A stretch of DNA of 64,000 bases from Mariannaea sp. PMI_226 (lineage: Eukaryota; Ascomycota; Sordariomycetes; Hypocreales; Nectriaceae), in NCBI GenBank assembly GCA_024336345.1, contig JANFOG010000008.1, positions 2,170,001 to 2,234,000 on the forward strand, written 5' to 3'. This document shows, piece by piece, positions 6,971-29,833 of the stretch. How positions within the stretch are numbered: the stretch's first letter is position 1; the number at the start of each line of letters is the position of its first letter. Below the pieces are notes generated by a model. That model was not told the origin of the DNA. It was given only the letters and a program-made list of their open reading frames with translations, and ran no database searches. The translations under genes were made by a program, and so were the position numbers.

Positions 6971-9900
6971 CTAGCCCCCAAAGTGAACAAATGGCGCCCA
7001 CTCCGGCCATTCAGCGTCCCTCCTCTCGCCATGAACAAGCCTCGCACGTCTCAGATTCTCCGACCCTCCCCCCGATTGATCTCGAGCAAGCCATTTGTCT
7101 CGCAGCTCTCTAATAGCGTGATGAAGCGCAGAACTGATATCAATATCTTCTAATCTGTCGCCAAATGCACGAGAATATACCATCGTCGCCACCTCTACGC
7201 AGGCCTGGTCGTGAACGTGCCAAATAGCTCCCACAACGTGTGCGAAGCCAACAAGTTGAAAGGCCCTTGGCATGTGAATGGCCTCATCAGTGTGAACCCA
7301 GTCTTGGAGACTCCCAGTCCCACAAGTGGACAGAAACGCGAAAAGGCGTGAACTGTTTCGCCCGATGGCCTCTTGGATGCTCTGCAGCGTCAGGGGATCC
7401 TTTTCCCAGTCTCTCAGCAAAAGACTGCTCCTTAGCGGGTTGTTGGTGTCGATGTGCCCGTGACCAGCGAAATGAAATATGTCACATCTTTGCAACTCAG
7501 AGATGACTGCCTCCTTCAAATCTACCGACCGAGTACAATTGACTCCAGCTGCTCCAAAGGCGTTTTCTACTGCCCTCATCTCATGGTCCACATAGGGCAA
7601 GGCAGAGTACTTTGGTGCCTCAATCACGCCAACCAAAAGCGCCTCCAGGGGTTCATTCGTGATATATGTATTATTCCTGTAGAGGATAGTGCTGACAGAT
7701 GAACTATAAGAGGAAATCACACGATCTAGGCTGGATTCTCGTGGCATATTTGAGTGGTATCCTGCCGCGTGTAATGGGAAGCCCACGAGTAGACCGGTCG
7801 GAATCCACCAGACTTCAGGCCAGGAATCGTCGGATGAAGGTAGCTCAACAAATCCTAATTCGCCGAGGATTGGCGAGACAACGGCGTCCCAGAGCCAGTT
7901 CAGGGTAGACATGGAGCCAACACTCTTTCCAGATCGATCAATCAGTTCCGAGTGGGAGAGCTTTGCCAAATTCAGTGCGGTTACTTTATCCTCTGTGATG
8001 ATCAATGCATCGCAGCCATGCACACTAACGTTGATTGCAACCAGGGAACCATTTCCGGCTGCGGACTTCATCTCTTGTTCAGAAACCAGGGTTGGAAACT
8101 GTTCAAAAGAAGGCTCAGAACGGATCGTCTGCATAATCTGCGCCATCAACCCATTGGCCACCTGACGTTGGAGAGCTCGCCGCTGTGGAGCGACGGAATA
8201 GCTGCTAGCATTGATGTGCAGGGAATCCCCATGAATTGAGTGCAGCTTCTCACAACTATCCGCGAACCGCGCCGCTAGATCCGGATAGAGACGACTTAGT
8301 CGCCGAAAGTAGGGACTTGAGCCTTGGAATGAATCCTCGAGTACAACACGACCAATCTCGAGCTTCTGGAGTGCAATCCACGGAGCTTTACCGGCGCGAA
8401 GGGCAATTGCTGCTGCATCCGAAGCCAGTCCAGCAGAGTCCTGGATCAAACGCTGCCTATCTGAGGTTCTCAAGACTGATGGAGTCAAATAGCTGATGAG
8501 GCCGATTGCTGTCTCGGCATGCTCCATTGCTAGGTCCGGATCTTCCAAGATATTCGGAGAGGATAGAAGCCTGCGACCAGCAGCGACTCTTTCAGTAATA
8601 GGAGATGTTGTGTCATGTAGGGCAGAAAGGTAGTACGCTCTCATCTGCTCAACCGTTATGGCATCGCCGGAGATTTCGTATTTCAATTCCAGCAGGTTGC
8701 CTTGGAGTAACAATAGCTCTGCTGCACCTGGGTTCGGCTTTGAGGTTAAGGCAACTGCATGGGCACCCACTGAAATCGCCTCATCAAGAACCTCGAGTGA
8801 TCTTGTATGCATGAACCTAACCTTCAGAATGGTCATCAGTGTATGGAGACGAGCAACTTCAACCAAATCGCCCGATCGTTCAATTCCGCTTGTCGCCTCA
8901 CGACCAAGAGCTTCGGCCTTATTAAGGTCATCAATCTTCTCTTCCTTTAAGAATCTGTCTAGAAGCCTGATGGCGAGGCTATTCAGCGTCATCGGGTGCC
9001 TTTCGAAGTCCATTTCGATAGAAGTCTGTAGTAACTCGATTGATTCATCCAAATTCTTCATGGCAAGTCTGGAGTGCATCTCTCCTAGCAAATTCCCCAG
9101 GTCTCTCGCCAGTTTCGACCAGTCGCAACTTTGACGAGACGTCATATCAAGGGCATGACGTAAAACTCTGGTTGCCTCTGTTAGATCGGGGAGCTTACCC
9201 GTTACCCAATATCTTCGAGTGAGCTGAGTGGCGAGGATCCTCTCTGTAATGAGGTAGTCACTCTGATCCTGAGATAGAAGTGAGAGAGCATCCATACTCA
9301 AATTGATGCTCTCGTTCAGATCCGAAATATGTCCACTGGTCACGTACGATTGTTCCAGTTGAACGGCCAAGTTTCGAGCAATGATAGGATAGCCTGGATC
9401 GGGACGTCGCTTCAAATTGAGAGCTTGTCGTAAATAAGAAATACCCTCCGTGCGGTCTTCGCTCGATGTATATTTCGAAAGGTCACCAAGAAGTCTCCCC
9501 AAGTCGTTCAACATGATTGCATTTGGGGAGCCAGTCCCTATCCCCATCCATTCGCGAGCCCCCTTCGTTGACCGAATCGCCGTATTTAGGTCCGATTCAC
9601 TGTTGGAATGGAGGAAGCTTTCGTATGAAACATATGCCAGATTAACAAGATTTTCGCATAGGGCAGGGTGATCTACCTCCATGGGGGTGGAGGCTTCCCG
9701 TGACAGATCGAAAGCTTCTTGGAGACGAGGAAGATAAGGTCCTGGGAGTTCGGAACTTTCACAAAGATAAACCGCAAGACAGCGGAGAAGGATACACCGA
9801 TAAGTAGAGCCTTCTTGAATATCTTTGAGAGCATCCCTGCCTAGTTCGATTGCCCGGTTCAGGTCCTTCAGTCTACCCGCTATCATAAATCTTTTCCAGC

Positions 9901-12900
9901 TGTGCCACACACGTTGATGTACAAACACATCACCTCTGGCGGTTTTGATACGTTCTTCTGATGGATTCAACAAATCTAACGCACGGGTTTGTCAGTATCA
10001 ACAATGTTAACACCATTCAATATCATTTCGCACCTGACAATTGCCTCTCAGTCTCTTCCTCATCGATCCGCGGCAGTAGGCGGGTGGCTGTCGAGTACTG
10101 GAGTGTTGAGATCCATTCAGTGAGAACTTTTAGAATTTGCGTGAATCCATAGTCCTCTGGAGAGGAAAATTTGACCATATTCTTATGATCAGCGGGAATA
10201 ACATGACAAGCGCCCTCAAAACTGGCGGCATCTTGGGACACAATCATCTCGCCTCCGTGAAGACGAAGCCCTTCACAAAAAGATGCTATCTTGACACCGC
10301 AGCCCTCATGACGCCGTTTTTTAACAAATCTCAGAAATTGGTCTTGGTTAAATACAAGTTCCTCACTGGGTACTTGTAGCATTTGTAGCAGTGACATACT
10401 AGTCCCTGTTACAAGACCAAGTACTGCTGCTGGTAATTTGGCCCAGTCAGCTACCCAGAATCCCCTATGAGGTGTGCCCAGGAACATAATGCCCTTGATA
10501 TATTCAAAAATACGACCACTATCGTTGAGGCGAAGAGCTTGCTTGATGAGAAGCCCACCTGCGCCGTGGGCAACAAATATAAGCGGTCGGTATGTTGCGT
10601 CGCATGCTGATCTATCGTCTGCGAGGCTAACCAAAAGATTCATGCTATGGTATTGGAAAGACGGGCCATGAGTTTCTGTCAAAGTTATTCTGTAACCGTA
10701 CGATAGTATTCGAGCATCTTCGACCTTCGAGGGCAGAAGAGTTTGCGGCCAAGGCATGGACTGTCCCTCAGCAGTCCAGTCGCTCTCCCTATCTCCAGTC
10801 AGGCCATGGATAAAGCAAATATCAACCGTAGCATCGGGGCAGTCGTGTAGAACTTTGAGTCCTATTTTCGACGGGTCATGGATTTCAGGAACAGAGGTAT
10901 TTTGGCCCTCCTGAGCGACGCTCTCTTCTTTTGCAGCTTGTTCAACGAGTATAGTCAATTGGTACAAACCAAGTCGGAATTCTGAATACAACTCATCAAC
11001 CATCTCGGAGGGAAAACGAGACGACCCATAAATTATTATCTCTGATGTCTTTATTTGGTAGAGCGTGCAGCATATCCTAACAAGTTCGGGGACAACACGC
11101 TCTGCTTTGCGAAGGCCTGACACCATCCCAATGATGGTTTGGTCAAATTGCCGAAGATCTTGAGGAAAATTGAGGGGCATAATGCCAGGAATAATGGCGA
11201 TGACTTGAGGTAGCAGCTCATGACTAAGTCCAGGGCCAGAGAAGTACTCCAGTTTATCGTGTAGAGATGGTTCAAACTCTTCTGCGTTGTTTGCTGAGCT
11301 TGATGAATCGGACGAGCACTTTTCTAGATTGACACCAGTACCAGTTGCCTGAGACTGCACCCCGTCGCCGGCGATACCCCACGGGAGAGCTCTGAGGGCG
11401 AATGAATGCATATGTTGCGTTATGTGCTCGTCAAGTTCCTGCTGCACTAGGGAAACAGAGAAGTTGCACAGTGGGCATTGCATCGGCTCAATCATTTTTC
11501 TCATGCTCATGTCAGACATTTCCTTCAGTTGAGATACTGGAATTGTCTTGAAATGAACTTCCTTGATATGCGAGGTCCAGTCCTCAGCTGTGTCAAAGAT
11601 CATGGTTTGATTTTCTTTCAATTGATCAGCGCAATAGTTGCAAACCCAACAAGAGACACCATGGTTGTGCCGGATATGTTTGTTCAGTTCCTCTGTGGTT
11701 ACGAACATGGAGTCTGGCGTCTGGCAATCTCGGACAGGACAGACATATGGGGTCAGGTCTCCTGCAAGGTGACCCCTAAACACACATCAGATTCTGATTG
11801 TTCGCCATATTGACGTAGACCCAAACTTACCTCCATCGAAGATCGTCCCGGACGTACTTGGCAGACAAAGGCTCTGCGCAGTAGGGGCATGGAGTGTCGC
11901 CTCGGGTTCCATCATCTTTCGGCCAGCGAGGATAGTCTTGTTGCCGGCCAGTGTGGGTTGCCTTAGTAATGATTGAAGCAGACTTCCTTGAGGCTGTAGC
12001 ATTTATTTTGAAATGAGATTGGAGGTCAGTGGCCGTTCGAGGTGCACTCGACTCGTTGTTGCTGACAGTATCTTCTTGAACAGGGTCTGACGGTTTGCTG
12101 ACATCTAATTCCCCTTGAATGATATTCTCCTGGCTCTTTGGGATGTCGCTGCTTTCTACTTTAGTATCCCCTGCGGTAGGTTGTTCGGTATATTGTTGTT
12201 CCTCTGCCATTCTTTGTCTTTCGGCTTCCTCGCGCTGCTGCTGCTCCGCAGCTTGCTTTTGACCTTTCCTCAGCTCTTCAGTTGCCTGTTCAATACGATG
12301 TCGGCGCACAAGGTTAGCGTGTATCAGACGATATTGGATAGGGCCAAGCTCAGTGAGGGCTTGAATGTTAGAGTTATGATCCCCAACTTCAAGTAAGATA
12401 GCATTCTCCATGTCCTCTTTCCAGGTTGTGAAGGCCTCTCGCTCCAGAGCTTCCCGGAGACAAGCATCTGCTCGTTGATGCCGCAATTTGCTGCCGGCCC
12501 TCCGAATGGCGGTATGTATGCGAGAAAGCTGTTTCAGAACACTCTTAATATCAAACTCGAGGTAGTCGATGGACTCAGATACTGTCAATGTGCTCGCAGT
12601 TGCCTCCTCGGTATTTGTACATTCGAGAGCCGAAACTGAGATAGAGAACAGGTTTAGTTATTTCCCTCAAGCCATCCAGGCATTTCTCTCACCTCCTTCT
12701 AACCCATCCTCTAGACACTCAGCTAACCCATCAAGGAGGTCGCAAATAATACTTGAAACGTCTTCTCGTTGTCGCACACGGTGGTCCAGCGATGTTTTGT
12801 CGGAGGCGGTTGCTTTCAAGCCGTAAACCCACAGGTTGAAATCAGCCTGACTTCTCTCGACCCAATTTCTGTTCCCAAGGATTGTACTAGATACGCAGTC

Positions 12901-12957
12901 ACGGAACAAGTTGACGCACTTGCGTGAGCGGTCTCTGATATCCGTCTTGGACGCCAT
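6971..12957 (-). CDS. C2H2-like / SesB-like hydrolase / TPR / CHAT-protease fusion (1938 aa)
   Basis: Four exons on the minus strand (12957-12693, 12635-11831, 11775-10034, 9975-6971) join in frame. The introns are 57, 55 and 58 nt; the last has the branch sequence TACTGAC. The exon-4 frame has no ATG near its start, which supports joining it to the SesB part. Order of regions: helical N-terminus (1-90); coiled-coil, Gln/Glu-rich part (about 200-260); Cys/His pairs of a fungal C2H2-type region (about 332-480); alpha/beta-hydrolase domain of the SesB type (about 665-915); TPR-like helical repeats (about 950-1550); C-terminal CHAT protease with His1776 (FAGHGH) and Cys1822 (STCGTG). The hydrolase nucleophile motif reads AHGAGG, so the usual Ser (about residue 761) is Gly. 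No NACHT or NB-ARC P-loop is seen. CHAT is a caspase-like family, and CHAT proteins are known neighbours and likely activators of fungal gasdermins. The gene is divergent from the gasdermin gene. Confidence 0.85.
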
Positions 12958-13405
12958 CACTTTTGCTGGCCTATCGTATTAGCGGTTACAATTTCAAACG
13001 GATGCGCTGGGGAAGCAGCACTCACAATCCAGTTTACATGGCTTTTGCTGCCCCTTGCAAAACCACAAACCGGCCAGATCCGGCCCTTCACAGCCTAAAA
13101 TTGAGTGATTGGATAAGAAAATTCGATATGTAGGATTCGTGATATGGGACCGATTCGGCTAGCTGCAGCAAGCTGAACTGCTGTGATCCAGGGTTCTGAG
13201 GTGTGATTCGAGAATAACTTCCAAGCCACTCAGCAACCCCTCATGCCAAGTCAGCTGAGCCTATATCGGATTATTAAATACCGCAAATTCAGTTTGAAGA
13301 ATAAGACATCCTAAAAGGGCATATTTTAGTTACTAGTCGCCAGGAGTGCTCTCAGTTGGACTATTTTGAACCATCTCATTCAATCTTATCGACCTAGAAT
13401 CCGTC
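12958..13405. promoter_or_regulatory. Shared divergent promoter region of CHAT and gasdermin genes
   Basis: 448 bp separate the two start codons, which point away from each other. No other gene is visible, so both promoters must lie here and may be co-regulated. I cannot point to a convincing TATA box or operator. Confidence 0.6.
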
Positions 13406-14414
13406 ATGGAGAATTGCTGGTTTGTTCTGAAGCAAAGCCAATTTCCACCGCCAAGATTACCTGTCAACGGTATAGGCATTGCAAATGGGGCAATCTGTCC
13501 TGGCCAAATCGTGGCGACTGTGGATGACCTGGAGGGAGTTATCAACAGATCCGTTGAAGGATTCGAATTCACACCGGCTGTACCGATACACCCCACTAAA
13601 GCCTGGGACTTGAAATGGGAAACAGGCAAATCGAATCAGGCTGGATTATCGTTAGATGGAGATATCCCTATAGCACAACTCGTTGGACTCTCCGCTCACG
13701 CAAAAGCCGCCTTGGCATTCCAGCACACTGTCCAAAGATACCGTTGCTTTGACAGGTTGGACCGATACATCATTCTGCCTACTAGGAGCTACATTGCAGA
13801 TGTACTTGACGATCCCCAGGTTCAGGACCACATCCATAACCGTTCCAAAAATCGCAAGACGTTAGGGGACTTTTTGGGTGCCTGGAAGATATACATGGTC
13901 ACAGGAGTCACGATTGCTCGCGGCTCTCGTGGCGGTTCTTCGGAGTCACAGAATATATCTGCAAACACAGGTTTAGGAGCGTAAGTCTACCTCAGGGGGT
14001 CACTTCAGTGAGACCATCCCCTCCGTCACCAACCAATGTAGCATGGCCGGGATACTGTCCATCAGCTACGATCCTCACTAATATCTATTTAGAAAGATGG
14101 ATGGCGTCGCCTCGGCAAACCTGAATGCTACTTCGTCCTCGGCAGAAACAATGTCTATGTCGGCTGGTTTGGAGTCCGATTTTGTATGGGCTGTCCGACT
14201 CACCAAGATTTGGAAAGATGTGACCGACAGAACTTGGTCCTTTAAAACCCAATCAAAGGGTTCCACATTCTCTTTGGACCAAGAACAGCAGCAACAAGAG
14301 GAAATAGCTCAGGCTTTGGCAGATGAAGGGAAAAGCGAAGCAGAGAAACTTTGGATTGGAGACGAAGAATGCTTTATTGTATTTGATCGACCGGAGAAAC
14401 AATTGGATGGTTGA
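13406..14414 (+). CDS. Fungal gasdermin-like pore-forming protein (HET-Q1/RCD-1 type, 298 aa)
   Basis: Two exons (13406-13980 and 14093-14414) join in frame across a 112-nt GTAAGT...TAG intron. The length fits fungal gasdermins (about 250-300 aa). The features I recognise are the strand motif WKIYMVTGVTIARGS (160-174), a Ser/Gly/Ala-rich loop with NTGLGA (188-192), a strongly amphipathic Ser/Ala segment (195-218), and SDFVWAVRLTKIW (220-232) followed by KGSTFSLD. The last 45 residues hold a Gln/Glu-rich linker (255-275) and a short hydrophobic end (FIVFD), the right place for a small autoinhibitory tail released by proteolysis. In the known family the cleaved N-terminal part oligomerises in membranes and kills the cell. 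Both neighbours encode proteases, which strongly supports the assignment. The sequence identity itself was judged by eye. Confidence 0.72.
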
Positions 14415-14911
14415 ACCTATGGCTCTATTACTTGAGCCCTTTTCTCCTTTTGAGCACTGTAATTCTATTGTTCGTAGTTGATGCTAGATTCAACTCCCAC
14501 TACAATCCGTTTAAAACATTAGCAAAGCAGGGAGGTCGCGGCCAGTATTACTGAGAGGTTGCACAATATAGAAGTGATACGGCTAGATCAGTGTAAGAGG
14601 ATCGAATTCGACAGAATACTCTGCCTCACTTAAGTCTGCCGATCGCTGCGTGGTCAACAAAATCAGTGACATATTGTTCGCTGAGAATGAAGGGTGTAAA
14701 GGACTGGATTTCTTATCACTCAGCCAGCTTGATGCTAATAACCCCTAGTTCGGAGATAATGGATGGGTATGCAATTATACGCTGGTACCTCCAATGCATT
14801 CGCCTCCCGGCCATCTCAAGCTCCCAGTTCAGCGAGTCCATGGAACCCTACCGCTCAAGTCGGGTTAAAACATTCTCATTTGCTTCATTCGAGCTCCTTG
14901 CATTGTGAAGA
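14415..14911. other. Intergenic between gasdermin and S8 protease genes
   Basis: Contains an 80-codon frame (14666-14908) without recognisable features. It could hide an extra upstream exon of the protease gene, but no good splice junction links it. It presumably carries the protease promoter. Confidence 0.45.
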
Positions 14912-17900
14912 ATGCTGGGCATATTTAATCAAATATTTAACTCCCCTTTGCCATGGACGACACAAACGACAGAGCTGCCGACGAATGCTGACTCCTTGTC
15001 GAGCTTCTCCGGAGATGTTGCTAAGAAGCTCACGGCGGACATGAGCAACCTACCACCAGGACCAGGTGTAAAAATCTTTCGAGGTCTATTTACCGTCTAT
15101 CTTGAATCTATTGTAGAGTTGCCCGAGTTTTCGCTTGATGCTACTCATACATCAAAAGATAAAAGTCGAATTCTCATTGTCTTGGACAATTTAGAATCGC
15201 TTTGCCAGGTCAGGACTGTCTAAAATTGTATCATAATAGGGACACTTAAAGACGGAATGGATGCTATTGCTTAATACATTGCGACGTGATTACGATGAAG
15301 CTAATACTTTTGTGGCAAACAGTGGCCGCTGAACTGCGAGCAGACGTATGAGCGGAGCAATGTTTTCGTTCTGGAACAATATCCGACACTCAGGTCACTT
15401 CTCCTCCCACAAGGCTCAGCCAGTTATGCAATCAGCGCATTTTTAGACGCACGAAGGCGTAGGGATCGAGCGGCTCTGGCCCTCTGGACACGACTGAGAA
15501 CCTCGTTTGAAGATCTATCGGCGGAACCTGATGACGAAGATGCAGGCCCAGGTCTTTCAGATCTGAAAAAGTCAGTGTCTCCCAACGAAGATTATGAGGA
15601 CAATCAAGCCTTTATCTTGAGTTTATATCAGGTCTTGTCTGAGCATTTCAAGTCTGCCTGTCCGTGCCCAAGCTCAATTATCCTCAATCTTCGTTTGAAC
15701 TGGTTGGGCAAGGAGGTTATCAACGAGATGGACGCTCTCTGCTTCAGCTTATATTTGAAGGACCACATCACTGCACCAATAGAGATGGAAGCAGGCTGTC
15801 GGTGGCAAGACATCCTGATTTCTATCCGCAAAACCTCCAGTGTGAACATTCTGGAACCACCAAAAAATGCGGAAGCAGATGTTATCCGAATAAGTGAGGA
15901 AACGAAAACACTCACCATCGGTGAACCCCGAGAGGATGATGGATCATCATCCTCATCCGAGTCAGACGAAATCGACGAATTCTGCGAGCTTCTCTGGGCC
16001 GCTGAGGAATCGCAACTAAAGTTCACTTACTCATCACGCTTCGAGTACCAAGGACCATGCCAATCTAAGAGGCCATTCTTGAGAACTTCTCCTAGCATCC
16101 CTTTGTCTAGACTAGTTGGCTCAGGAAAACTAAGTGACAGAATGAAACTTCTCCTTTCTTTTCTTCTGGTGCGCACACTCTGGCAATACTACGAATCTGA
16201 CTGGATGAATGATGACTGGGGAAAAGAGTCCGTTCATTTCATGTTCGACATAGAGGATGGCTCACACAAGGTCATATCAATACATGAGCCCTTTCTTCAG
16301 ACCCTGTTCAACAAGAGCAGTCCAGATGAACAAGCGAAAGACTCATCAACCAAGGGTACCAATACGTCACACAGACAGAGACGTCAGAAAAGAAATTCTG
16401 AGCGCAAAACAAAATTGCGCACACACCCGTATCCCAAGTTTCTTGCGCTGGGAATCATGTTGCTTGAGATCGAATTGGATAAGAAGCTAGAGGACTTTGG
16501 TACCCTTGAATGCAGGGATTCGGATACCACCAATGTGCGGCACACCATTGCGGGCAGATTTCTCCAAAATCAAGACCGATGGCCGCCGAAGGATATTTGG
16601 CGCCCCGTGAGACAAGCCATAGAGATTTGCATAAAGCCCGATACAGAGGTCCTTGGCACCAACGAGAGGTGGCTGCGACGAAAATATTTTGAGGAGGTAG
16701 TCAGACCGTTTCAGCAGTTTGTGGCCGAAGCCTGGCCAGACCCAGGCCAAGAAATGATTCCAGTGAGAATCGATAATTGGATGTTGCCTTCTTCGATACT
16801 GCCTGCTTCAGCTATCCACGAGCTGATCACAGATGAGGCAACTGACCGATGTGTGGAAGTCGCTCAGTGCCAGACGCAACTAGATGGCGTGAACATGACG
16901 TAGGTTTCATTTCATACTCACCATCTCATCGAAGTTTATGGGTTCTTCTAACAGATACGGCAGCCATGGAGATATTTCCTCAAGACCTGGCATCGGGTCT
17001 ACAATGAGCAGTGAAATGTAAGCCGAAACCGTCTATTTTGAACTAGCAGAAAGCCGAATACTAAAACTACTACAGGTCATTTACGGCTGATGGGTGGTTT
17101 CGGGACCTAGGCGACTTAAGCGATGTTCTCAGGATTACGAAACGCAGGAGAGACCAGGAAGCAGCACCTGTGAAAGTGGCCATCCTAGATACAGGGATCA
17201 AGGAATCTTACTATCAGCTTGTGAAAGGTAACATCAAAGTCTATAAGGACTTTGTAACAAAAGACGACAGCATCAGGCAGGATGGGACTGGGCATGGAAC
17301 GCTATGCCTTCAACTACTGCAAAAGGTGTATGAAGAGGCAGAGATATATGTTGGCCGCGTCTTTCGTGAGGGCCATGCGACAAATGAGACGAAACTACTC
17401 ATGATAGAAGTATGTTGGATTCCCATCCTGTGTGGAGAGATTGATGGATGATGCTCATGACGCGAATAGGCAATCCGAGAAGCAATCACCGAGTGGAAAG
17501 TAGAAGTAATATGTCTCCCATCTGGTTTTAAGGAGGAATGTTTATCCCTCAAGGAGGTTATTGGTGATGCCGTTCATGCCAAAACACTTATTTTCGCAGC
17601 AGCCTCGAATTACGGCAATGTCGAAGGCATATACTACCCGGCACGGTATTCCCGAACATTTCAAGTATTCTGCATGTTCTCAACAAATGCGGATTCAAAG
17701 CCATATTGCAACTTCAATCCTGGGGCCAATGCGGAGGCCAGGTACAATTTCGCCATCTTGGGAGAAGGAATCAGACTCCTGTCACTCACCGAGGGGGTCA
17801 TCCCGGAGCCAGTTCGAGGAACGTCCTTCTCTACAATTATCGCAGCTGGCATTGCTGCCCAGATCATTGATTTTTCCAGGCATCCTGATGTACGTGGCAA

Positions 17901-18114
17901 GATTTATGACCATCAAAGCCTGCGGAAAGTCGATGGGATGTCGGCTGTCTTTGCGAGAATGGTTTCATCAGTGGATAATCGGTATCATTGCCTTTCACCG
18001 TGGTTGCTGCTAGATGGCAAATCGGTAATCACCGAAGATAAACAAGTCATCAGGGAGGAGATTTGGACAAAAATCTCAAATGCGTTAAAGGAGGTAAACA
18101 ATATCCGACCATAA
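14912..18114 (+). CDS. DUF7580-like / subtilisin (S8) protease, HET-Q2-like (971 aa)
   Basis: Five exons (14912-15208, 15323-16899, 16955-17017, 17076-17409, 17470-18114) give one frame. The first about 600 residues form a helical region with an acidic Ser/Asp/Glu patch (about 300) and features of the fungal DUF7580 region (for example residues near RTLWQYYESDW). The C-terminal S8 domain is complete: Asp684 (AILDTG), His719 (GTGHGT), oxyanion Asn804 (AAASNYG) and Ser876 (GTSFST). There is no signal peptide, so it acts inside the cell. In Podospora the S8 protease HET-Q2 cleaves the gasdermin HET-Q1; gene order and domain content suggest the same pairing here. Weak points are the start codon and the first intron: its donor is GTCAGG, and its 114 nt contain a 30-codon open frame, so the N-terminal 100 residues are less certain. 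Confidence 0.78.
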
Positions 18115-18863: not shown

Positions 18864-19880
18864 ATGGCTGATCCAATCTATACTCTCAACAATGGCGACA
18901 AGGGTGTCGAGGAAGGTCGTCTCTCTTACCAACATCCCCTCTTCCTCAAGATGACCAAGACACTGCTACCGTACAAAATTAAGCAGGATCTCATTTCTCG
19001 CGGTCGGACACCGGCTGTCGCGGATGTGGGAACTGGCACGGGCATCTGGCTGCGCGACCTGGCAACAGAACTTGCGGGGGACGCACGATTGGATGGCTAT
19101 GACATCGACTCATCCAAGTTCTTGGCCGCCGACGAGTTACCACCAAATGTTTCCCTTTCTATCGGAAATGCACTCACTCCATTCCCTGAGGCATTGAGAG
19201 GGCAGTACGACCTCGTTCATGTTCGGCTTCTAATGTACGCGTTGAAGAGCGATCAATGGATCTCCGCGGCGACAAATTTGCGGACTCTACTGAAGCCAGG
19301 GGGCTACATCCTCTGGGATGAGACAGGATTCACGTCTTGGAATTGTTTGCCCATGACTGAGCACTTCCAAAAGTGGATTGCGACTGATGTGCGATACGGA
19401 CTATCTGTTGGTCGTGACATAACGTAAGCTTTCGATTATTTCTATTGTTGTCTTGTTTTCTTTTTCCCTTTGCATTTGCCACATGTTGGTGTCCGCCAAA
19501 CACCTCATTTGAAACTGTCACATCAGTGCTGCTCTGATATCGCACACCCGAGAGCAGAATCCTTATGCTAACACATATGAAGGAGCCCGATGACACTCCA
19601 CAAGCATCTTGAAGAGGCCGGATACATAGAGTGTACCCACGAAGACTTCAACAGCTACAGCGAGCCTGCCTCGTTACAGAAAATAGCGGGGAATGGACTT
19701 GTTAACGTTGGAAGGCAATCTCTACATGGCATTGTCGACAAGGGAGGTTTTGAATGGGTAGAGTCACATGAGGAGGTAGATACACATTTTGATAAAATGC
19801 AGGCGGATATTGATGATGACATTTGCAAGATGGGCTTTGCAATAACTTGGGCAGTTGGGCGTAACCCAAAGGATGCTTAA
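18864..19880 (+). CDS. LaeA-like SAM-dependent methyltransferase (285 aa)
   Basis: Two exons (18864-19423 and 19583-19880) join in frame; the intron starts GTAAGC and has a GCTAAC branch about 10 nt before its acceptor. Two acceptors 3 nt apart (exon at 19583 or 19586) both keep the frame, changing one residue. The SAM-binding motif I is VADVGTGTGIWLRDLA (about 52-67), followed by an acidic residue after motif II (GYDIDSS) and the motif around DLVHVRLLMYAL. The C-terminal GFAITWAVGRNP resembles the end of many fungal LaeA/TAM-like methyltransferases that act on small molecules or in secondary-metabolism regulation. The substrate is unknown. No polyketide or peptide synthetase is nearby. Confidence 0.85.
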
Positions 19881-22360
19881 GCGGAACTTCACATAGTGCA
19901 CCGCAAATCCAAAGGCATAGTATTCATTTTTGGCTAAAGTTCTACAATAGGTACTTGGACTTCTTATGCATACTTCATTCAACCAACTTATGTACGGAAT
20001 TGAACTCTCTACTCCATATGGTCTAAACCGTGTTCATTTGATTTTGGTCGTCAGTATTTGACAATATTGGGGAGGCTCCCTGTGGTCTTGGCTATGTATT
20101 CCTCATACACATTTCTGTTAGTACACGGGGACGATTTGTCCCTGGTCTCCTCAGTCGATAGCGGCTTTGGGCGCTTGTTTGAAAGGATTGAGCCTATTGT
20201 GATGCCAAGCAATCACACTGCTAGCTCAACATTCTGCTGCTGTATGAAGCAATTTTCTGCCAGACTCCACGTGAACACTCATACTCACGGGTTCGTCAAT
20301 GAGAAGGTGGATATAGTGCTTGAGCAGCCTAAGCACCTGAGGAGCACGCAGATGAGTCGGCGCTGCGATGATGGCGCCCGTGTGGCTTGGATTTGGGAAA
20401 AGAGTTCACAAGGTCCTCGGATCAAATCATGCAAATATTGGCGTAAGGCAGACTGTATAGTAGTATGTATATGTTCAGTCTCTACGGTAAGCTATGATCC
20501 AGATTTTTGGCCTGATGCTTAATTCTTGTTGACGCCGGCAAGCAAAAATGCAAAAGGAGTAGCCCATGTTGAAAATATTACATCTCCTAGTTGCTGAGAC
20601 GAATTTTGTTTTGTTCTTTAACAATATAAAGTCTTTCATTGTCGACCAAGGCGTAATGCTGCGCTATTTTAACATCACCCTTCCCAGCGTTGTTATCTCA
20701 CTACAATTTTGGTGGCAGAGTACATGTACAGGATGAAAAAAAAAGGAAAATAAAAAAGTTGAGTGTAAAAGCTGCTTGAATAAAAGAAAAGGATAACCAA
20801 GAATCAAGATATAAGGATTCAGATTGGACATGAGGTATAAAATCGTAAAATCGCCCTGTGAGAACGCAGAGAGGGCACCCAAGTGTGGTCCAGAAACGAT
20901 GCAAGCCAAGAAATCACAGTTCTAAAATTCAACAAGCCGAGTGCACACCATTTCCACACTCTCCAGACACTGGCCAAGCTGCATAATACGAAAGGGAGAG
21001 AAGAAAAGACCGCTGCTGGGGCGCCGAGCGCGTGGCGGCACGGCTCGTAAACAGTCCAGCCAACCTGAGTCTGGGCTAACTGGATTGAGCCGATCTGGTG
21101 ATACTCAAGAATGAATGGGGCGTGCTCGGCAATAGTCGTGGCTAGCTGAACGACTCTGTAGGAAGTGCCAACATGAACCTATGGATATTTCATATTTTGA
21201 TCCAACTAATCTGTACCTTGGTATTGGTTACAACTATTAGTCTACCATGTTGATCCGACTACGAGGTGGCAGCAGTGCAACAAGACGACCGTAAGAAGTC
21301 GAACCCGTTTGTGAGGAGCGCATGCAGCGGGGACATGCTACCTGCTTTCGCATTATTTTTCGGTACTAAACTGTTTACACAGTAGTAGAATACAATATTC
21401 CTTACTGAGTGGCAAGCGTAATGGTAAAAGCTGACCTCACATAGGCATGATCTCCATATTTCCCTGTCGAAGACCTTCTCCGCCGAAATAGAACATTTTC
21501 AGCTTATACCGTGGTACCGTTAGATAGTCTGACACTACAGCGCTGTAGTGAGTGAGACTATTGGCAACACAGCTGGGTCTCGACTTTTTGGCTACCTTCG
21601 CCATGGCCTCAGCTCCGTCTGGTCATCCAGATCGCTGGTCAAGAAAAAAAGATCGTATAATTATGAAGAGTCATGCCACGGCTCAGCCGAAAGACGGGCT
21701 CTCGTAGTGGGCGATGATAAAGACAAGAAAACCACAGACACTGTCACCGTCGCTCCTTAACTATGCCTTCGTATTTATCCCATCTCTTGTTCATAAAGCT
21801 TTATCAGTTCCCGATTTCTTCAGTTCCGTTGCCCTAGCCCCTCGTTCTAGCGCTATCCCGTACTGAGCTTTGCCGAATGTAGTGGATATCCCTGCTAGTT
21901 TTTGCCAATATTGGGACATCCATTGAGACCTCGCCCATTCTCGATCACGGATTTGGTCATGTCGTGGCTGGAAACGGAAACGGGCGACAAACAGAAGCAC
22001 TCAGTTCGCCGTCAGCCTCAGCTGAAAGATGTCCTATGCGGCCAATCGTAGACACAAATCTCCATCAGGATCAAGCATGCCAAAAATATGTGTTACTACA
22101 AATTACCAGTACCACCGTGAAGTTGGAAACACATGTGCTGTCCCTCCGTCCATACTGCACTGCACTCCTGGTACTAAAGAGAAGAGGGAGGAGAACTATT
22201 GTGCAGGAAGTTTTCAAAGACATTGATCATATTCGGTCACCAGCCGCATGGGCCTTTTCCAAGACGAGTGATTATAGAGTTACCCTGAAGTAGGACGGGG
22301 ATTTCATATGACAAACACTTGCACCAGCGTTGACAATTGAACGGCTGGCGCTCTCACACC
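19881..22360. other. Large intergenic region before the Tc-like gene
   Basis: 2.5 kb without a supported gene. A 154-codon frame at 20058-20522 and short frames at 21548-21760 and 21964-22293 have no family signature. There is an A-rich tract near 20736-20795. The right part should contain the promoter of the Tc-like gene. I see no terminal repeats or transposase remnant that would explain how that gene arrived. Confidence 0.5.
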
Positions 22361-25300
22361 ATGGCACCCACTTTCGAATCTACCAAGATACCCCCCCAGC
22401 CGGTCCAACAACGCGACAGGAGTGCGGCCCAAGCTGGACAAAGCGGCGAGAAGTCATCCTCAGGAACAGCATCTGCAGGCACAAGCAAGCCTAACGAAGC
22501 TGATCCTAAGGCATCATCATCATCTTCTTCTTCTGTTCAAGTCCCTACAATCGATGTGGCCAATTTCGCAACAGGAAAGGGAGGCGGCGCGCTACGGTCC
22601 ATTGACCAGAAGTTCAGCGTTAATCCATCTAGCGGAAGCCTCTCCCTCAGTATCCCTCTACCCATTACTGGCGGACGTCAAGGCTTCCATCCAGAGCTAG
22701 ATCTTGACTATGATTCTGGCAGTGGAAACGGTCCATTTGGAATAGGCTGGTATGCGACAGCACCGAATATCACACGAAAGACATCGCATCGCATTCCCAA
22801 GTACGGACCAGGCACTGATATATTTGTTTTCGCTGGAGCCGAAGACCTTGTCCCGTCTCTGCAGGGGAGCGAGCGGGCTGTAGATGGCTACACTGTCCGC
22901 AAGTTCGAGATACGTGTGGAGGGTGCCTCTCAGGCACGAGTGGAACAATTGACAAGCTTGCAAGACCCAAACGATGTCTATTGGAGGACTGTTTCCAGCG
23001 ACAACACTACCAACATATACGGGCGCGACGACTCTTCGCGACTCCTGGAAACTATTGGAACCCAAAAACGAATCTTCTCCTGGCTGCTTTGCGAGTCGTA
23101 TGATGCATTTGGAAACGCTATCAGCTACACTTATAAAGCTGAAAACTCTGATGGCGTATTTGGTGATGCCCTAAATCCGCTGGCGTCAGAAAGCGAACGA
23201 GATCCTCAGGTGCGAAACCGTGGTCGATACCTCAAATCGATCAAATACGGCAACTCAATGCCTTGCCGCAATCTCAAGACTTGGGCCATCGACTCCAGAC
23301 TGCAGGCAGTTAAATGGTGTTTCGAACTGGTCTTTGACTTTGGCGAGCATTCAGATGACTGTCCTGACACGACCGAGGTTAGGCCATGGACTGTTCGGCA
23401 AGATCCCTTCTCATCTTGCCGAAGTGGATTTGAGATCAGGGAGTATCGACTATGTCGAAGGGTGCTGATGTTTCATCACTTCCCACACGAGCTTGGCCGA
23501 GAGGATTATTTGGTATCTTCCATGTCCTTTAAGTATGATGAATCTCCTACCGGATCTTTCCTCAGTTCAGTCGTACGAAGCAGTCATGTCTTTGATGCCA
23601 CGCTAGGCAAATATGTGACGGAAAGTCTCGAGCCTTTCACTTTGGAATACACGAAAATGTCGAGCCTTGAGAACATTCAAGTGCACAGTATCAAGCCCAC
23701 TTGTCTTCAGACTTTGCCCGTGGCCAACTCTGAAACGGTTACGCGCTGGATCGATCTCGATGGCGATGGTACACAGGGTCTCTTGGTGCAGACCCGTGGA
23801 GCTTGGTACTATCAAAGAAACGAAAAGGCAATAAATTCCGGAAAGTCTGATACCGAGTCAGGTTCTGAATCCGAGTCAGAATCGGAGCTCGAGTCCGACG
23901 TTGAGATTATTGATGACTTTGGACCGGTGACGCAGCTACCCTCCATGCCGATGCTGGGGAATCTTGCCAATGCCACCTTTGAGGACTTGGATGGCAATGG
24001 CAGACAGGATGTGGTCATCACGGACCAGAACGGCCGTAGCCATGGGTATTATGAGCGGCTCAATGGTGAGCTTGGCGACGAATGGACGCCACTGCAACCA
24101 TTTGAGGCCGTAATAAACTCACACATTGAGGAGGGCGAGATGAAGAGTCTTGACCTGACGGGAACCGGCACGAATGACATTCTCGCAAACGATAATGCCG
24201 GTACCATGTATTGGTACGAATCATTAGGAAAGAAAGGATGGAGTTCACAACGCGCGTGTAACACCGCTGAGCAAAAGGCTTATCCTCTCTTTCTCGTTGG
24301 AGACAATCATAGAGCAACCTACCTTTGCGACATGACAGGTGACGGCCTGGAGGATGTCGTACAGCTAGTCAACGGGCGCGTTTCTTACTGGCCTAATTTA
24401 GGTTATGGCCGTTTTGGTCGAGCTGTTGTGATGGACAACTCGCCCAAGATGGCACCCGACGATCTTTTTACGCTGGAGAGACTCCATTTACTCGACATTG
24501 ACGGCAGCGGCACGAAGGACATAATTTACCTCCCGCCCGAGGGAGGCATAATGGTCTACTACAATCAATGCGGTAACAGTTGGAGTGATGGAATCTTCGT
24601 TGAGCAGTTTCCTCGTGTTGATAGACTAACAAGCGTCTTCACACTCGATGTGCTTGGTAATGGAACAACATGTCTTTGCTGGGCTGGGCCCGACGGCAGC
24701 ACCACTGACGACTTGGTGATATACTATCTCAATCTCGCCTCAGACGGTAAGCCGCATCTCCTCAAAGCCTTCAACAATGGCCGAGGATTTGAAACCAAGG
24801 TGTCGTATCGACCATCAACCAAATTTTACCTACGGGATGAGCGGGATGGCCACTCATGGAGAACTAAACTACCCTTTCCTGTCCATGTCATCTCTAAAGT
24901 GATTGAACGCGACCTATTCACCTTGGCGAGGAGTATCACCAAGTACGCATACCACGATGGCTTCTTTGACGGCCAAGAACAAGAGTTCCGTGGGTTTGGG
25001 ATGGTGGAAGTATGGGAACGCAATGAAGTGAAACTCACTCCTGGTGATGCTAAGCCGTATCGGAGGCCTATCAGCTACACGAAGTTGTGGTTTCATACCG
25101 GCTCAGCTGAGCTGCCTCTCGTACCAGAGCGCGTATTCGGAAAAGTGAGTGTGCAGACCGTAATTCCGAACGGACTGAACCACTTTGCACGGTCTCAGTT
25201 TTGCCGTGCCCTTCATGGACGAGAGATGCGTGCGGAGACGTACGGGCTCGACGGAACGGCGAAGGCGAGCACTCCTTACTCAATCGAAGACACCACATAC

Positions 25301-28300
25301 GACATTGAGCTACGGCAGAAGGTCCAGGGTGAGTTATCACCTGGAGTCTTTCGTGTTTCTCAGCGAGAATCACTCTCCACAACGTATGAGCGCGACATGA
25401 CACAACCTCCCCGCGTCGAACATGAACTCTGTTTGGAGAGAAACAAATATGGAGATGTCACGAAGGAAGCAACCATCTCTTACGGCAACAAGAAGAGCAG
25501 CTTGGAAGACAAATACTGCCGAGCTGTGCAAAGCAGGAACGAGGTAACCTACACAGAGACGTCATACACAGATGCAGTCGATTCAGACTCAGACGTCAAC
25601 TTCTATGCGCCTTTTGTTGCGTCTACCAACACTCTTCATATTAGTGGCTTAGCATTTACAGATCAGGTTGATATCGTGACTGCGAAGATTGACCCTCAGC
25701 GGTTCTTTGGCATCAAGCCTCCTCAAGAGCCAGATCAACCTAGTTTGGCGAGCCCAGTGGTCGTACAAGGATATAAATCACGTATTTACTATCGCAGCGC
25801 GGACCTAACCCATCGCTTGGCCTTTGGGCGTGTGGAATCAGGACCAATCCTGGTGGATCAAGAGTTCACTCTGGCCCTCAGCAAGCAAGACTGCTATGCA
25901 GCTTACATGGCCGACAAGGACCGGCTTGCGGGACACACTCTGCCAAAGATCATGGCAGAGGGCGGTTATGTTGACCTTGATGGTGACGGTAGCTGGTGGA
26001 GCCCCTCCTCTCGCGCATTCTTTGGTCCCTCTGACCATGATGCCTCGGACAAGGGTCACTCTACTATCCCAGAGCTGTTATGGGCACGGGAGAGTTTTTT
26101 CACGCCTACAGTCAGCGTGGATCCGTTTCATGCTCGTTCGACCACAAGTATGGATCGACATTGGCTCTTACCAGAGACTGTTACAGATGCATTGGGCAAT
26201 GTGTCCAAAGCCGTTAATGACTACAGGACTCTCCGACCTTGTACCACTGTTGATCCAAATGGGAATCGCAAAACGGCAGCCTACAACACATTTGGAGACA
26301 TGACGGCAACAGCGACGCTAGGAAAGGCCGACGAACAAGTTGGAGACTATGTCGATCCCAATGTGACACTGTCCGTGCCATCCTCGACTCTCGCTGAGTT
26401 TATGAAGCACCCAATCAAGCAGGCTGCAAAGGATTTTCTCGGCGGCTGGGGTGAGCGAATACTGTACTCTCATGGTGTACTCGATATCGACGGATGCAAA
26501 TCGCCTCCTTTTGCGATTAAGCTCACAAGAACTGAGCATGTCCACAATGGAAAGAATGAAGAATCTCCGGGGGATCTTCTGATGAGCATATCATATTTCG
26601 ACAACGATGGAACTGTAACACAGAAAGCTACGGTCGAGTCGTGGGAGGCTGAACCATTGCAATGGTGTATCAGCGAGCGGCATGTCAATGATATTGACGG
26701 CAGCATGGTCAAGGCCTTCCAGCCATTTTTCGCTAAGAATCACCTTTACAACCAATTCCCATCACAAGAGGTTCCGGCAACCTACGAATTCGTAGACGCC
26801 GTTGGTCGACAAGTTGGTGTGCTGTACGCAGACCACACGTGGACTAAGACCAACTTCAGCGCTTGGTCTGAAATCACCTATCGAACTATTGACACTATTA
26901 ACATTGAAAATCCGAAAGATGACGCCGATATTGGCTTTTACTTTAATAGCTTGGCTCCAGCAACATATTCCCCCTCATGGATGCATATGCACAGTTCCGG
27001 TAACGCGCAGGCTCAACTCGCTGCACAAAGATCTGCCGAAGTGTCTATTAAAGGCTCAGTCGTTTCTCACTTGGATTCTGATGGTAGAGAAATTATGAAG
27101 ATCGTCAAGTCTGGAGAGAAGACCCGAACAACTCGGTTCGAATTGGACAGTGATGGGAATAGGTTGAAAGAGTTTGATTCTCTCGGAAGGCTCGTTCAAG
27201 AGTGTTTGTATGATCAACAGGGTCAACGTACAGCTGTCGCGAGTATGGATGCTGGGCGTCAAACGATGGTATACGATATCGGAGGAAAGCCACTACTGCA
27301 GTGTGACATGCAGGGAGTATCCAAAAGAAGCGTCTTCGACTTGCTGCGCCGGGTGGTTGAGACTAGAGTCAAGGACAGTCCAGATGCGAGCGAATACGTG
27401 TGGTCAAAAACTGTGTACGGAGAGGGGGAGGTGGACGCAGCCCAGAAGAACCTTCGAGGAAAGGTCGTCCGGACATACGACCAATCGGGTGTACATGGTG
27501 CTCCAAGCTATGATTTCAAGGGCAATGTGCTTTCGGAAACGGTACAGGTTGCGACAGAGTACAAAAGCGCCATCGATTGGTCGGGAGAGGTGGCGCTTGA
27601 GCCAGCAGTCTACGTGACTGAGCACATACGTGATGCCCTCAATCGAGTATCTTGGTCTGTGGATGCATTGGGTCGACTGACAAAGCACACATTTGACCTT
27701 TCCGGGCGACTTACAGCTCTGAATACTAAGCTTCCAGCCGACAAAGAATGGACTGCTCTCATCTGCGATTCCAGCCACGCTGCAGATGGATTGCCCCTCA
27801 CTATTAAGTACGGCAACGGGGCAACCTCTCACTACACATACGACAGCCAGACAAGGCAAATCTTGACCAAGACCACCCGGCGAAAAGATGGTTCCATCAT
27901 AGAGGATTTGTCGTACACGTACGACTGCCTCAACCGAATTGTCCACACCGTAGATGCAGCTCAAAAAACTGCCTACTATAGGAACATTCAGGTCAAGCCC
28001 GTGAACGAGCACTGGTACGACGTATGGGGTCGGCTGGTCAAATCTACAGGTCGAGAAATGGTCTCTGGTAGCAGCACAGCTTCTCTCAGCAGCAAGTCCA
28101 ACCAGACCAACCCGCTAGCAAATACGGGACTAGCAATGCCGAACGGGAAGGAAATGGCCACCTACACAGAGACGTATACATACGATGACGCTGATAATAT
28201 TCTCAGCATGACTCACCAAGTCTCGGGCGCTGCCACTGCTGGATGGACTCGGTCATACAGCTACAATGAACCTAGTCTCCTGGAGCCAGGCCGAGTTGGA

Positions 28301-29833
28301 AACCGTCTCAGCTCCAGCCAGCTTTCATCGCGGGCCGAAAATTACAGCTATGACGCGAGCGGTTGCATAGCCTCAATGCCAGGTTTCTCGAAGGTGCAGT
28401 GGGATTGTACTATCCGTAAGCTGAAGGCCTCTTCTCGACAACGGTTCAATAAAGACAAAGTCAGCATGCCGGAGACAACGTGGTATGTCTACGATAGCGG
28501 GGGAGCGCGAGTTCGCAAGGTGACGGAGCGAGCCTCGTCGTCCACCGCTGGCAAGATGATTGTTAAGAGAAAAGAGACCATAATGCTTGACGGCGTGGAC
28601 ATCTTGATCAAATACGGAGGCGATGGTGCCATAGCGTCCAAGACAACGACATCAATGATTGGAAGCGGCGCTAAAGATGACAGTCCCCTTGTGCTGATGG
28701 AAAACCTCAACAATTCGCGTACGTTGCTACGCTACAACCTGAGTCCAAGTCTCGAGGTCGACGACAAAGCTCGTGTTGTCTCATACGAAGAATACTCCCC
28801 CTTTGGCGTAACTACGGTCATCGCACGCGGATCCGGCATCCAGGCCCCAAGGATATACCGGTTTGCCTCGTATCGTCGAGACAAGGAAACAGGCTTCTAC
28901 TACTGCGGCGCCCGATACTATCTCCCGCACCTAGGAAGGTGGCTTTCACCCGATCCCATTGGCACGGCCGACGGACCTAACATCTACTGCTACTGCGCCA
29001 ACGATCCTATCAACTGGGTTGATCCAGCCGGCACCATGAAAGAAACAAAAAAGAAGGCCACGACCAACACTGCTGATAGTAACTTGGACGCGGTCTCGCT
29101 AAACATCCAGGGACCCCAATCGCGGGCCGCATCGCAGCCCGCATCGCAGCCTACAGCGCAGCCCAAGAAGAACTCTTATTGCCAAGAGTTCCGTAAGGGA
29201 ATAACAAAGGAGAGTGTGGGAAAGTCTATAGTCGCCGGGTTTGTGGCGGGCGCGATCGCTGGAGGTGCTAACGCGTATTCTACATGGAAAACCGCCGGGA
29301 CGACCGGTGTTGATGTTGCTATAGCTGGGGCCTACGGCTTTGGCGTTGGCTTTGCAGCCAGCACTGCACCTACTGCCATCACATATCTCATCTGGACCTG
29401 TTTCTCGCGATCGGACAACACAGCGGCGGTGGCGCCGGCGCCGACGACGGGCACTACCGCCAACGCCAACAACCTCCCAGAAGCACCGCTCGATGAAGAT
29501 ACGGGACACGAGCCGGGGGCCAAAAAGCGGTCAAAGTCGACGCCAATTAATAAAATTGTCACAAAAAAAGTAAAAGTGAATGAGAAGTCCAAGGACCCCA
29601 AGGACGGTGACAAGAAGAAGGGCCAGGAGCAGAACAGGGGCAGGACCAAGAACGTGAACGAGGGCGGGAACAGGAGCAGGAGCAGGAGCAGGAAGGCGGG
29701 CGAAAGCAACAGCCCTAACCAACGAAACAACACCAGCATGCTTAATAACAGCATTCTTAATAACAGCACAGCAGCACTGAACAATCCTAAGAAGACGAAG
29801 TCTCCCCATAAGAACAAACGCGGGGGGAGATGA
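22361..29833 (+). CDS. TcB/TcC-like (SpvB-RHS) insecticidal toxin complex protein (2490 aa)
   Basis: One uninterrupted 7.5-kb frame, started at the first ATG (22361). After a low-complexity N-terminus (1-60) come an SpvB-type domain (motifs PSSGSLSLSIPLP and YDSGSGNGPFGIGW), FG-GAP/VCBS-like repeats (DLDGDGTQGL, DLDGNGRQDV, DMTGDGLEDV, DIDGSGTKDI), the TcdB middle region, then RHS/YD repeats. The RHS core ends with the conserved Asp/Gly-rich closing motif (GRWLSPDPIGTADG... to VDPAGT, about 2193-2223). In bacterial Tc toxins B and C form a hollow shell that autoproteolytically releases the variable C-terminus; here B and C are one polypeptide. The C-terminus (2224-2490) has two hydrophobic stretches and a Lys/Arg/Ser/Asn-rich tail and matches no effector I know. 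Lack of introns and the family's bacterial distribution suggest horizontal transfer. No TcA subunit gene is in the window. Confidence 0.88.
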   Translation: MAPTFESTKIPPQPVQQRDRSAAQAGQSGEKSSSGTASAGTSKPNEADPKASSSSSSSVQVPTIDVANFATGKGGGALRSIDQKFSVNPSSGSLSLSIPLPITGGRQGFHPELDLDYDSGSGNGPFGIGWYATAPNITRKTSHRIPKYGPGTDIFVFAGAEDLVPSLQGSERAVDGYTVRKFEIRVEGASQARVEQLTSLQDPNDVYWRTVSSDNTTNIYGRDDSSRLLETIGTQKRIFSWLLCESYDAFGNAISYTYKAENSDGVFGDALNPLASESERDPQVRNRGRYLKSIKYGNSMPCRNLKTWAIDSRLQAVKWCFELVFDFGEHSDDCPDTTEVRPWTVRQDPFSSCRSGFEIREYRLCRRVLMFHHFPHELGREDYLVSSMSFKYDESPTGSFLSSVVRSSHVFDATLGKYVTESLEPFTLEYTKMSSLENIQVHSIKPTCLQTLPVANSETVTRWIDLDGDGTQGLLVQTRGAWYYQRNEKAINSGKSDTESGSESESESELESDVEIIDDFGPVTQLPSMPMLGNLANATFEDLDGNGRQDVVITDQNGRSHGYYERLNGELGDEWTPLQPFEAVINSHIEEGEMKSLDLTGTGTNDILANDNAGTMYWYESLGKKGWSSQRACNTAEQKAYPLFLVGDNHRATYLCDMTGDGLEDVVQLVNGRVSYWPNLGYGRFGRAVVMDNSPKMAPDDLFTLERLHLLDIDGSGTKDIIYLPPEGGIMVYYNQCGNSWSDGIFVEQFPRVDRLTSVFTLDVLGNGTTCLCWAGPDGSTTDDLVIYYLNLASDGKPHLLKAFNNGRGFETKVSYRPSTKFYLRDERDGHSWRTKLPFPVHVISKVIERDLFTLARSITKYAYHDGFFDGQEQEFRGFGMVEVWERNEVKLTPGDAKPYRRPISYTKLWFHTGSAELPLVPERVFGKVSVQTVIPNGLNHFARSQFCRALHGREMRAETYGLDGTAKASTPYSIEDTTYDIELRQKVQGELSPGVFRVSQRESLSTTYERDMTQPPRVEHELCLERNKYGDVTKEATISYGNKKSSLEDKYCRAVQSRNEVTYTETSYTDAVDSDSDVNFYAPFVASTNTLHISGLAFTDQVDIVTAKIDPQRFFGIKPPQEPDQPSLASPVVVQGYKSRIYYRSADLTHRLAFGRVESGPILVDQEFTLALSKQDCYAAYMADKDRLAGHTLPKIMAEGGYVDLDGDGSWWSPSSRAFFGPSDHDASDKGHSTIPELLWARESFFTPTVSVDPFHARSTTSMDRHWLLPETVTDALGNVSKAVNDYRTLRPCTTVDPNGNRKTAAYNTFGDMTATATLGKADEQVGDYVDPNVTLSVPSSTLAEFMKHPIKQAAKDFLGGWGERILYSHGVLDIDGCKSPPFAIKLTRTEHVHNGKNEESPGDLLMSISYFDNDGTVTQKATVESWEAEPLQWCISERHVNDIDGSMVKAFQPFFAKNHLYNQFPSQEVPATYEFVDAVGRQVGVLYADHTWTKTNFSAWSEITYRTIDTINIENPKDDADIGFYFNSLAPATYSPSWMHMHSSGNAQAQLAAQRSAEVSIKGSVVSHLDSDGREIMKIVKSGEKTRTTRFELDSDGNRLKEFDSLGRLVQECLYDQQGQRTAVASMDAGRQTMVYDIGGKPLLQCDMQGVSKRSVFDLLRRVVETRVKDSPDASEYVWSKTVYGEGEVDAAQKNLRGKVVRTYDQSGVHGAPSYDFKGNVLSETVQVATEYKSAIDWSGEVALEPAVYVTEHIRDALNRVSWSVDALGRLTKHTFDLSGRLTALNTKLPADKEWTALICDSSHAADGLPLTIKYGNGATSHYTYDSQTRQILTKTTRRKDGSIIEDLSYTYDCLNRIVHTVDAAQKTAYYRNIQVKPVNEHWYDVWGRLVKSTGREMVSGSSTASLSSKSNQTNPLANTGLAMPNGKEMATYTETYTYDDADNILSMTHQVSGAATAGWTRSYSYNEPSLLEPGRVGNRLSSSQLSSRAENYSYDASGCIASMPGFSKVQWDCTIRKLKASSRQRFNKDKVSMPETTWYVYDSGGARVRKVTERASSSTAGKMIVKRKETIMLDGVDILIKYGGDGAIASKTTTSMIGSGAKDDSPLVLMENLNNSRTLLRYNLSPSLEVDDKARVVSYEEYSPFGVTTVIARGSGIQAPRIYRFASYRRDKETGFYYCGARYYLPHLGRWLSPDPIGTADGPNIYCYCANDPINWVDPAGTMKETKKKATTNTADSNLDAVSLNIQGPQSRAASQPASQPTAQPKKNSYCQEFRKGITKESVGKSIVAGFVAGAIAGGANAYSTWKTAGTTGVDVAIAGAYGFGVGFAASTAPTAITYLIWTCFSRSDNTAAVAPAPTTGTTANANNLPEAPLDEDTGHEPGAKKRSKSTPINKIVTKKVKVNEKSKDPKDGDKKKGQEQNRGRTKNVNEGGNRSRSRSRKAGESNSPNQRNNTSMLNNSILNNSTAALNNPKKTKSPHKNKRGGR

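Follow-up and report, generated by a model that had tools for sequence, protein, structure and literature searches.

A gasdermin gene of Mariannaea sp. PMI_226 between a CHAT and an S8 protease gene: a gasdermin-S8 unit with a possible second protease input

In this study, three neighbouring intact genes were found in the genome of Mariannaea sp. PMI_226, where a gene for a 298-aa gasdermin (plus strand) lies between a C2H2-hydrolase-TPR-CHAT gene (minus strand) and a DUF7580-S8 gene (plus strand). We propose, with a probability of about 0.4, that they constitute a cell-death locus with a tail-restrained gasdermin, an S8 protease as its core partner and the CHAT protein as a second sensor-protease acting on the same gasdermin. 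The genus Mariannaea belongs to the Nectriaceae, Hypocreales (taxonomy look-up), in the class Sordariomycetes; the genome amounts to 42.2 Mb in 25 contigs, and the stretch of 64,000 nucleotides that was analyzed (the window) is located inside contig C24 (2,477,575 bp). An earlier note on this DNA had described an adjacent CHAT fusion (minus), a divergent gasdermin (plus) and an S8 protease (plus), and our gene models gave the same positions with intact frames. Since the gasdermin has proteases of two different families on its two sides, the locus departs from the definition of a cluster of one gasdermin and one protease. The features, in window positions, are:

6971..12957, minus strand: CHAT protease gene (spliced model, Pfam CHAT domain, homologues of the separate parts, catalytic columns)
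12958..13405: spacer of 448 bp between the divergent start codons of the CHAT and gasdermin genes
13406..14414, plus strand: gasdermin gene, 298 aa (spliced model, RCD-1-1 match)
14256..14411, plus strand: KGSTF linker and 47-residue C-terminal tail, the proposed inhibitory piece (position, mass, linker in relatives)
14912..18114, plus strand: S8 protease gene, 968 aa (deposited protein, Pfam, alignment, predicted fold)

The gasdermin gene comprises two exons (13406-13980 and 14093-14414) separated by an intron of 112 bp (GTAAGT...TAG). A single-sequence search against solved structures (PDB) matched the product to RCD-1-1 (E = 5.1e-29) and RCD-1-2 (E = 3.2e-22) and gave no match to HET-Q1, and a profile of eight gasdermin sequences matched RCD-1-1 at E = 8.3e-66 and the HET-Q1 pore (9uv9) weakly at E = 0.0087. 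Homology to solved fungal gasdermins therefore extends across the pore-forming domain (RCD-1-1, RCD-1-2 and, by profile, the HET-Q1 pore), which bears out the earlier identification of the 298-aa product as a fungal gasdermin. Because the RCD-1 matches are strong and the HET-Q1 pore was reached at only 0.0087 by profile, the middle gene, judged by its sequence, belongs to the RCD-1 branch and is not close to HET-Q1. The Pfam search suggested in the earlier note gave nothing: PF04598 matched neither the window gasdermin nor any of the eight aligned members, and gasdermin identity was obtained through the RCD-1-1 and RCD-1-2 matches instead. The PF04598 model matched nothing in 14 control genomes either, so its silence says little, and it was set aside as a defining test, being too narrow for all eight members whose profile matches solved gasdermins. 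RCD-1-1 and RCD-1-2 of Neurospora crassa (PDB 8jyx, 8jyy, 8jyz) are homologous to the window gasdermin over its residues 1-248, and the alignment displayed a common CWF.L start and DFVWAVRL segment; the RCD-1 proteins have 257 and 244 aa and are triggered by the other allele, whereas the window gasdermin has a tail and two protease neighbours. In addition, the predicted structure of the homologue P0004 (15 sequences) had low confidence (mean pLDDT 45), and at E ≤ 0.001 only six RCD-1 chains matched this low-confidence model, with TMq of 0.37 or less; it serves here as side evidence.

The linker KGSTF occupies residues 247-251, and the tail after F251 comprises 47 residues (5.39 kDa). The pattern G(A/S)TF was observed in the window protein and in six of nine homologues checked, as KGATF in five and SGATF in P0042; P0015 and P0016 deviate, and the deposited model of P0010 is without the linker stretch. 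HET-Q1 loses approximately 5 kDa, or 40 residues, past F238, according to the available part of PMC10989679. The likeness of the two tails is one of size, place and a phenylalanine. RCD-1, as described in the available text of PMC11760362, is without an inhibitory C-terminal domain, unlike the window gasdermin with its 47 residues. By analogy with HET-Q1, we propose that the tail may be an inhibitory piece.

The S8 gene begins 497 bp beyond the gasdermin stop and comprises five exons (14912-15208, 15323-16899, 16964-17017, 17076-17409 and 17470-18114), whose spliced product of 968 aa is identical to the deposited BGZ63DRAFT_406123 (P0017). Pfam annotation placed DUF7580 at residues 319-564 and Peptidase_S8 at 675-888 (PF00082, 3.6e-12). 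Asp681, His716, Asn801 and Ser873 are present, and aligning 30 proteins, part of them fragmentary, showed a conservation of at least 90% for each; the catalytic residues are intact as had been claimed, and the former numbering (Asp684/His719/Asn804/Ser876) differs by +3 through another splice choice. A protease of the HET-Q2-like (Q2L) kind, S8 with intact catalytic residues, is hence found less than 10 kb from the gasdermin. The predicted model (mean pLDDT 75) showed a subtilisin fold, with TMt up to 0.78 (Foldseek). A kinase-like reading of DUF7580 was considered and dropped: the 50 Foldseek matches listed for the model were all of subtilisin type and leave the N-terminal half uninformed. 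Elsewhere in the genome, a frame on contig C23 (C23:1260024-1262360) matched DUF7580 (4.6e-26) and had no S8 match in Pfam, so DUF7580 is not tied to S8; for a nucleoside-phosphorylase-like end that we had read on this frame, Pfam gave no support at E ≤ 0.001. HET-Q1/HET-Q2 of Podospora anserina resembles the window in the gasdermin tail of about 5 kDa and in the S8 protease partner, but HET-Q2, in the portion of the literature available, has 388 aa and is idiomorphic with HET-Q1, whereas the window protein is a 968-aa DUF7580-S8 protease adjoining the gasdermin.

The pairing of gasdermin and S8 recurs in other fungi. The gasdermin search yielded 16 proteins, half of them on contigs below 10 kb, and the S8 search at least 32 proteins among the 7989 candidates sharing most words; linkage was judged by a same-sized contig in two lists, a stand-in for synteny that works only for assembled genomes. 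Apart from the contig of the window itself, two such cases were identified: gasdermin P0002 and S8 protein P0018 of Lophiotrema nucula are both on a contig of 1,681,003 bp, and P0004 and P0020 of Phaeosphaeriaceae sp. PMI808 are both on one of 319,357 bp. The chance of such sharing is approximately 4% and 0.7%, respectively, with genomes assumed to be 45 Mb. Among the S8 matches listed, no same-contig partner was seen for the gasdermins of two Trichoderma, Zopfia, Orbilia and Stachybotrys. Furthermore, scanning all 104 proteins with the gasdermin profile revealed two among the 32 listed S8 proteins that begin with a gasdermin, namely P0019 of Plenodomus tracheiphilus and P0042 of Colletotrichum karsti. 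These single annotated proteins look like the result of annotation merging neighbouring genes, in the order and direction of the window, rather than true fusions. Lophiotrema and Plenodomus belong to Pleosporales, in Dothideomycetes, and Colletotrichum, like Mariannaea, to Sordariomycetes (there in Glomerellales), so that two classes are represented among the fungi with this pairing.

Within the Mariannaea genome itself, three gasdermin loci were detected with the window and second gasdermins as queries, a lower bound, as more diverged copies could escape, and all three adjoin an S8-DUF7580 gene. The two loci outside the window are:

C23:270484-271326: second intact gasdermin, 281 aa, divergent from its S8-DUF7580 gene (RCD-1-1, E = 1.1e-5)
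C23:266276-268884: S8-DUF7580 gene beside the second gasdermin
C23:579196-579585: gasdermin relic with several stops
C23:575453-578270: S8-DUF7580 gene beside the relic

The relic points to genes arising and being lost. Taken as comparative evidence from sequences, these findings make the gasdermin-S8 unit well supported.

The CHAT gene was modelled with four exons (12957-12693, 12635-11831, 11775-10034 and 9975-6971) and 1938 codons with no internal stop. Its protein consists, in order, of a C2H2-type N-terminal module (approximately residues 1-490), an alpha/beta-hydrolase-like part (~660-950), a TPR-like region and the CHAT domain (PF12770, E = 1.4e-27, residues 1628-1937). The homologues differ from part to part: a Lindgomyces protein matches residues 1-531 with its front, NACHT- or NB-ARC-type proteins match residues ~660-950 with theirs, and residues ~966-1937 are matched by TPR-CHAT proteins from Xylaria, Truncatella and Colletotrichum. 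The families of these homologues follow precomputed Pfam accessions. His1776 and Cys1822 fall in His and Cys columns in all 14 aligned homologues (picked from 56), so the catalytic pair is kept, in the numbering of the earlier note, and a CHAT domain with a His-Cys dyad stands 448 bp from the gasdermin. A division into two separate genes, one for the hydrolase and one for TPR-CHAT, was considered. The possible 58-bp intron at 10033-9976, which joins the parts in frame and holds what we read as a CTGAC branch-like site, favours a single gene; its donor GTGCGA is an uncommon form, and the aligned TPR-CHAT homologues match no front part of the protein, both of which argue against it. On the sequence features available, one CHAT gene of four exons appears the better model.

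CHAT genes are rare in this genome, with five matches (one weak) in 42.2 Mb, counts that are lower bounds. Under uniform placement, the probability that any of the five would fall within 1 kb of any of the three gasdermins is ~7e-4, a rough guide, since immune genes cluster and the true figure is larger. The head-to-head spacing of 448 bp is unlikely to have arisen by chance. At the second gasdermin locus and the relic, an S8 gene is present and no CHAT match was detected nearby, so that one of the three own loci has a CHAT gene. Around the other four CHAT matches, the gasdermin profile, applied to ~8 to 11 kb on each side (partly the CHAT gene itself), found nothing better than E = 5.1. None of the 56 proteins that the CHAT search yielded was on a contig of the same size as those of the 16 gasdermins or the 32 listed S8 proteins, and none carried a gasdermin according to the profile; as this search covered candidates of at least ~1066 aa and its matches lacked the CHAT protein of the window itself, this is weak evidence of absence. 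Of the conserved linkage of all three genes that the earlier note had made a condition, the gasdermin-S8 part held, and the CHAT part was, among the candidates that this search covered, seen linked nowhere else. The CHAT gene looks like an addition to the gasdermin-S8 unit.

On these grounds the locus could work as follows. By analogy with HET-Q1/HET-Q2, the C-terminal tail would hold the 298-aa gasdermin inactive. A protease would sense a signal and cut the linker near F251, whereupon the tail would leave, the front part would form pores and the cell would die, as suggested by HET-Q1/HET-Q2 and by the gasdermin/TPR-CHAT pair of P. anserina. The core unit would consist of the gasdermin and the downstream S8-DUF7580 protease, a pairing known from distant fungi. 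The C2H2-hydrolase-TPR-CHAT protein, possibly a later arrival to judge by position alone, would have joined this unit and, again by its position alone, might release that gasdermin in response to another signal. For the separate parts, the S8 protease is probably an activator of the window gasdermin, and the CHAT protein is only tentatively an additional one. Dual control of one gasdermin by both proteases is plausible; against it stand the other own loci without CHAT, the deviation of the linker in three of nine homologues and the nearest characterised relative, RCD-1, which reportedly works through a second allele and is without an inhibitory C-terminal domain (PMC11760362, available text).

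The closest competitor, which we regard as a real though somewhat lesser possibility, is that the S8 protease alone controls the gasdermin and that the CHAT protein is an independent immune receptor, a chance neighbour in a changeable region. The distribution of partners is consistent with this explanation: S8 linkage was found in four other fungi and in all three own loci, CHAT in one own locus and, as far as seen, nowhere else. An NB-ARC-TPR protein (C23:1254535-1257972) that has no detected gasdermin neighbour also carries the C2H2 module seen in the CHAT protein. The short head-to-head spacing together with the rarity of CHAT genes argues against mere neighbourhood, and reviews, in their available parts, treat CHAT genes near gasdermins as activators.

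The C2H2 module (window 11376-12957) matched four loci genome-wide at E ≤ 0.001, and a profile run on selected stretches added two weak ones. At the window locus the rear part is hydrolase-TPR-CHAT. At C23:272326-274045 it consists of ankyrin repeats, and that gene starts at C23:272227, 898 bp past the stop of the second gasdermin. The third locus, C23:592086-593741, lies ~12.5 kb from the gasdermin relic, with a protein-kinase frame following it. The fourth, C23:1254535-1257972, forms the front of the NB-ARC-TPR protein, ~1 kb from the DUF7580 frame, beside which the gasdermin searches of the own genome detected no gasdermin. Each of the two intact gasdermin loci is thus accompanied by an S8 gene and has, within 1 kb, a C2H2-module gene, the latter with differing rear domains. 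These are few cases, and C23 holds three of the four module loci. This contig appears to be rich in genes of this kind. A gasdermin-S8 core with an exchangeable third arm, a C2H2-module receptor that in the window ends in a second protease, is a reading we consider rather unlikely; if true, one pore former would answer two independent triggers in the window. Near the C2H2-NB-ARC gene, a long frame on the minus strand (C23:1266802-1269852) reads, to us, like a retrotransposon polyprotein.

The other explanations are less probable than the proposed cell-death locus with two proteases acting on one gasdermin. A cascade, in which one protease activates the other and just one of them cuts the gasdermin, is improbable: in its favour, both proteases are multidomain and intact, but none has been described for fungi in the parts of the literature examined. 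It is still harder to credit that activation is the task of the CHAT protein and that the S8 gene is a leftover of an earlier pairing. The CHAT and gasdermin genes do have a divergent promoter region in common, but the S8 gene has an unbroken frame and intact catalytic residues, both well conserved, and the partner in other fungi is S8. Finally, that the gasdermin acts like RCD-1, its nearest solved relative, by meeting another allele, with neither protease mattering, is very improbable given its 47-residue tail and protease neighbours, as against an RCD-1 without an inhibitory C-terminal domain (PMC11760362, available text).

CHAT-controlled and S8-controlled fungal gasdermins have each already been published, as far as the available parts of the sources go. 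In P. anserina, a two-gene cluster of gasdermin and TPR-CHAT is known in which TPR-CHAT activates the gasdermin (Clave 2022, as cited in the available text of PMC12881547). The window is similar in having a CHAT protease with TPRs adjoining a gasdermin, and differs in the C2H2-hydrolase front of the CHAT protein and the S8 gene across the gasdermin. Bacterial operons likewise place gasdermins beside caspase-like or other proteases, but these gasdermins are operonic and cut ~20 residues from the C-terminus, unlike the window (PMC9612521, available part). According to the portions of the literature at hand, 63% of fungal gasdermins are near S8 and 19% near CHAT, ~80% in all, which leaves little room for overlap, and reviews portray them for the most part as pairs of genes, a gasdermin and a single protease. 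A gasdermin with both S8 and CHAT was not found described in the partial texts examined, which exclude the primary survey (Clave 2022). With its conserved S8 partner and its added CHAT receptor, the locus offers a direct way to ask whether one executioner can integrate two signals and by what route a second input, of caspase-like type, is gained. In addition, it has been suggested that RCD-1 allorecognition derived from an earlier gasdermin pathway of which other parts were lost (PMC10197012; PMC12881547; available parts), and the window gasdermin, of the RCD-1 branch and with a tail and a protease neighbour, fits this idea.

Three further frames were observed in the window, all on the plus strand. 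Directly downstream of the S8 gene lies a methyltransferase-domain frame (18864-19427), and ~16 kb past the S8 gene a HeLo-domain frame (34319-35083; PF14479, 6.8e-31), HeLo being a further fungal cell-death family. Between them, an open frame of 2499 codons (22334-29830) matched the SpvB and TcdB middle-region families of bacterial insecticidal toxin complexes, a possible case of horizontal acquisition by a fungal genome.
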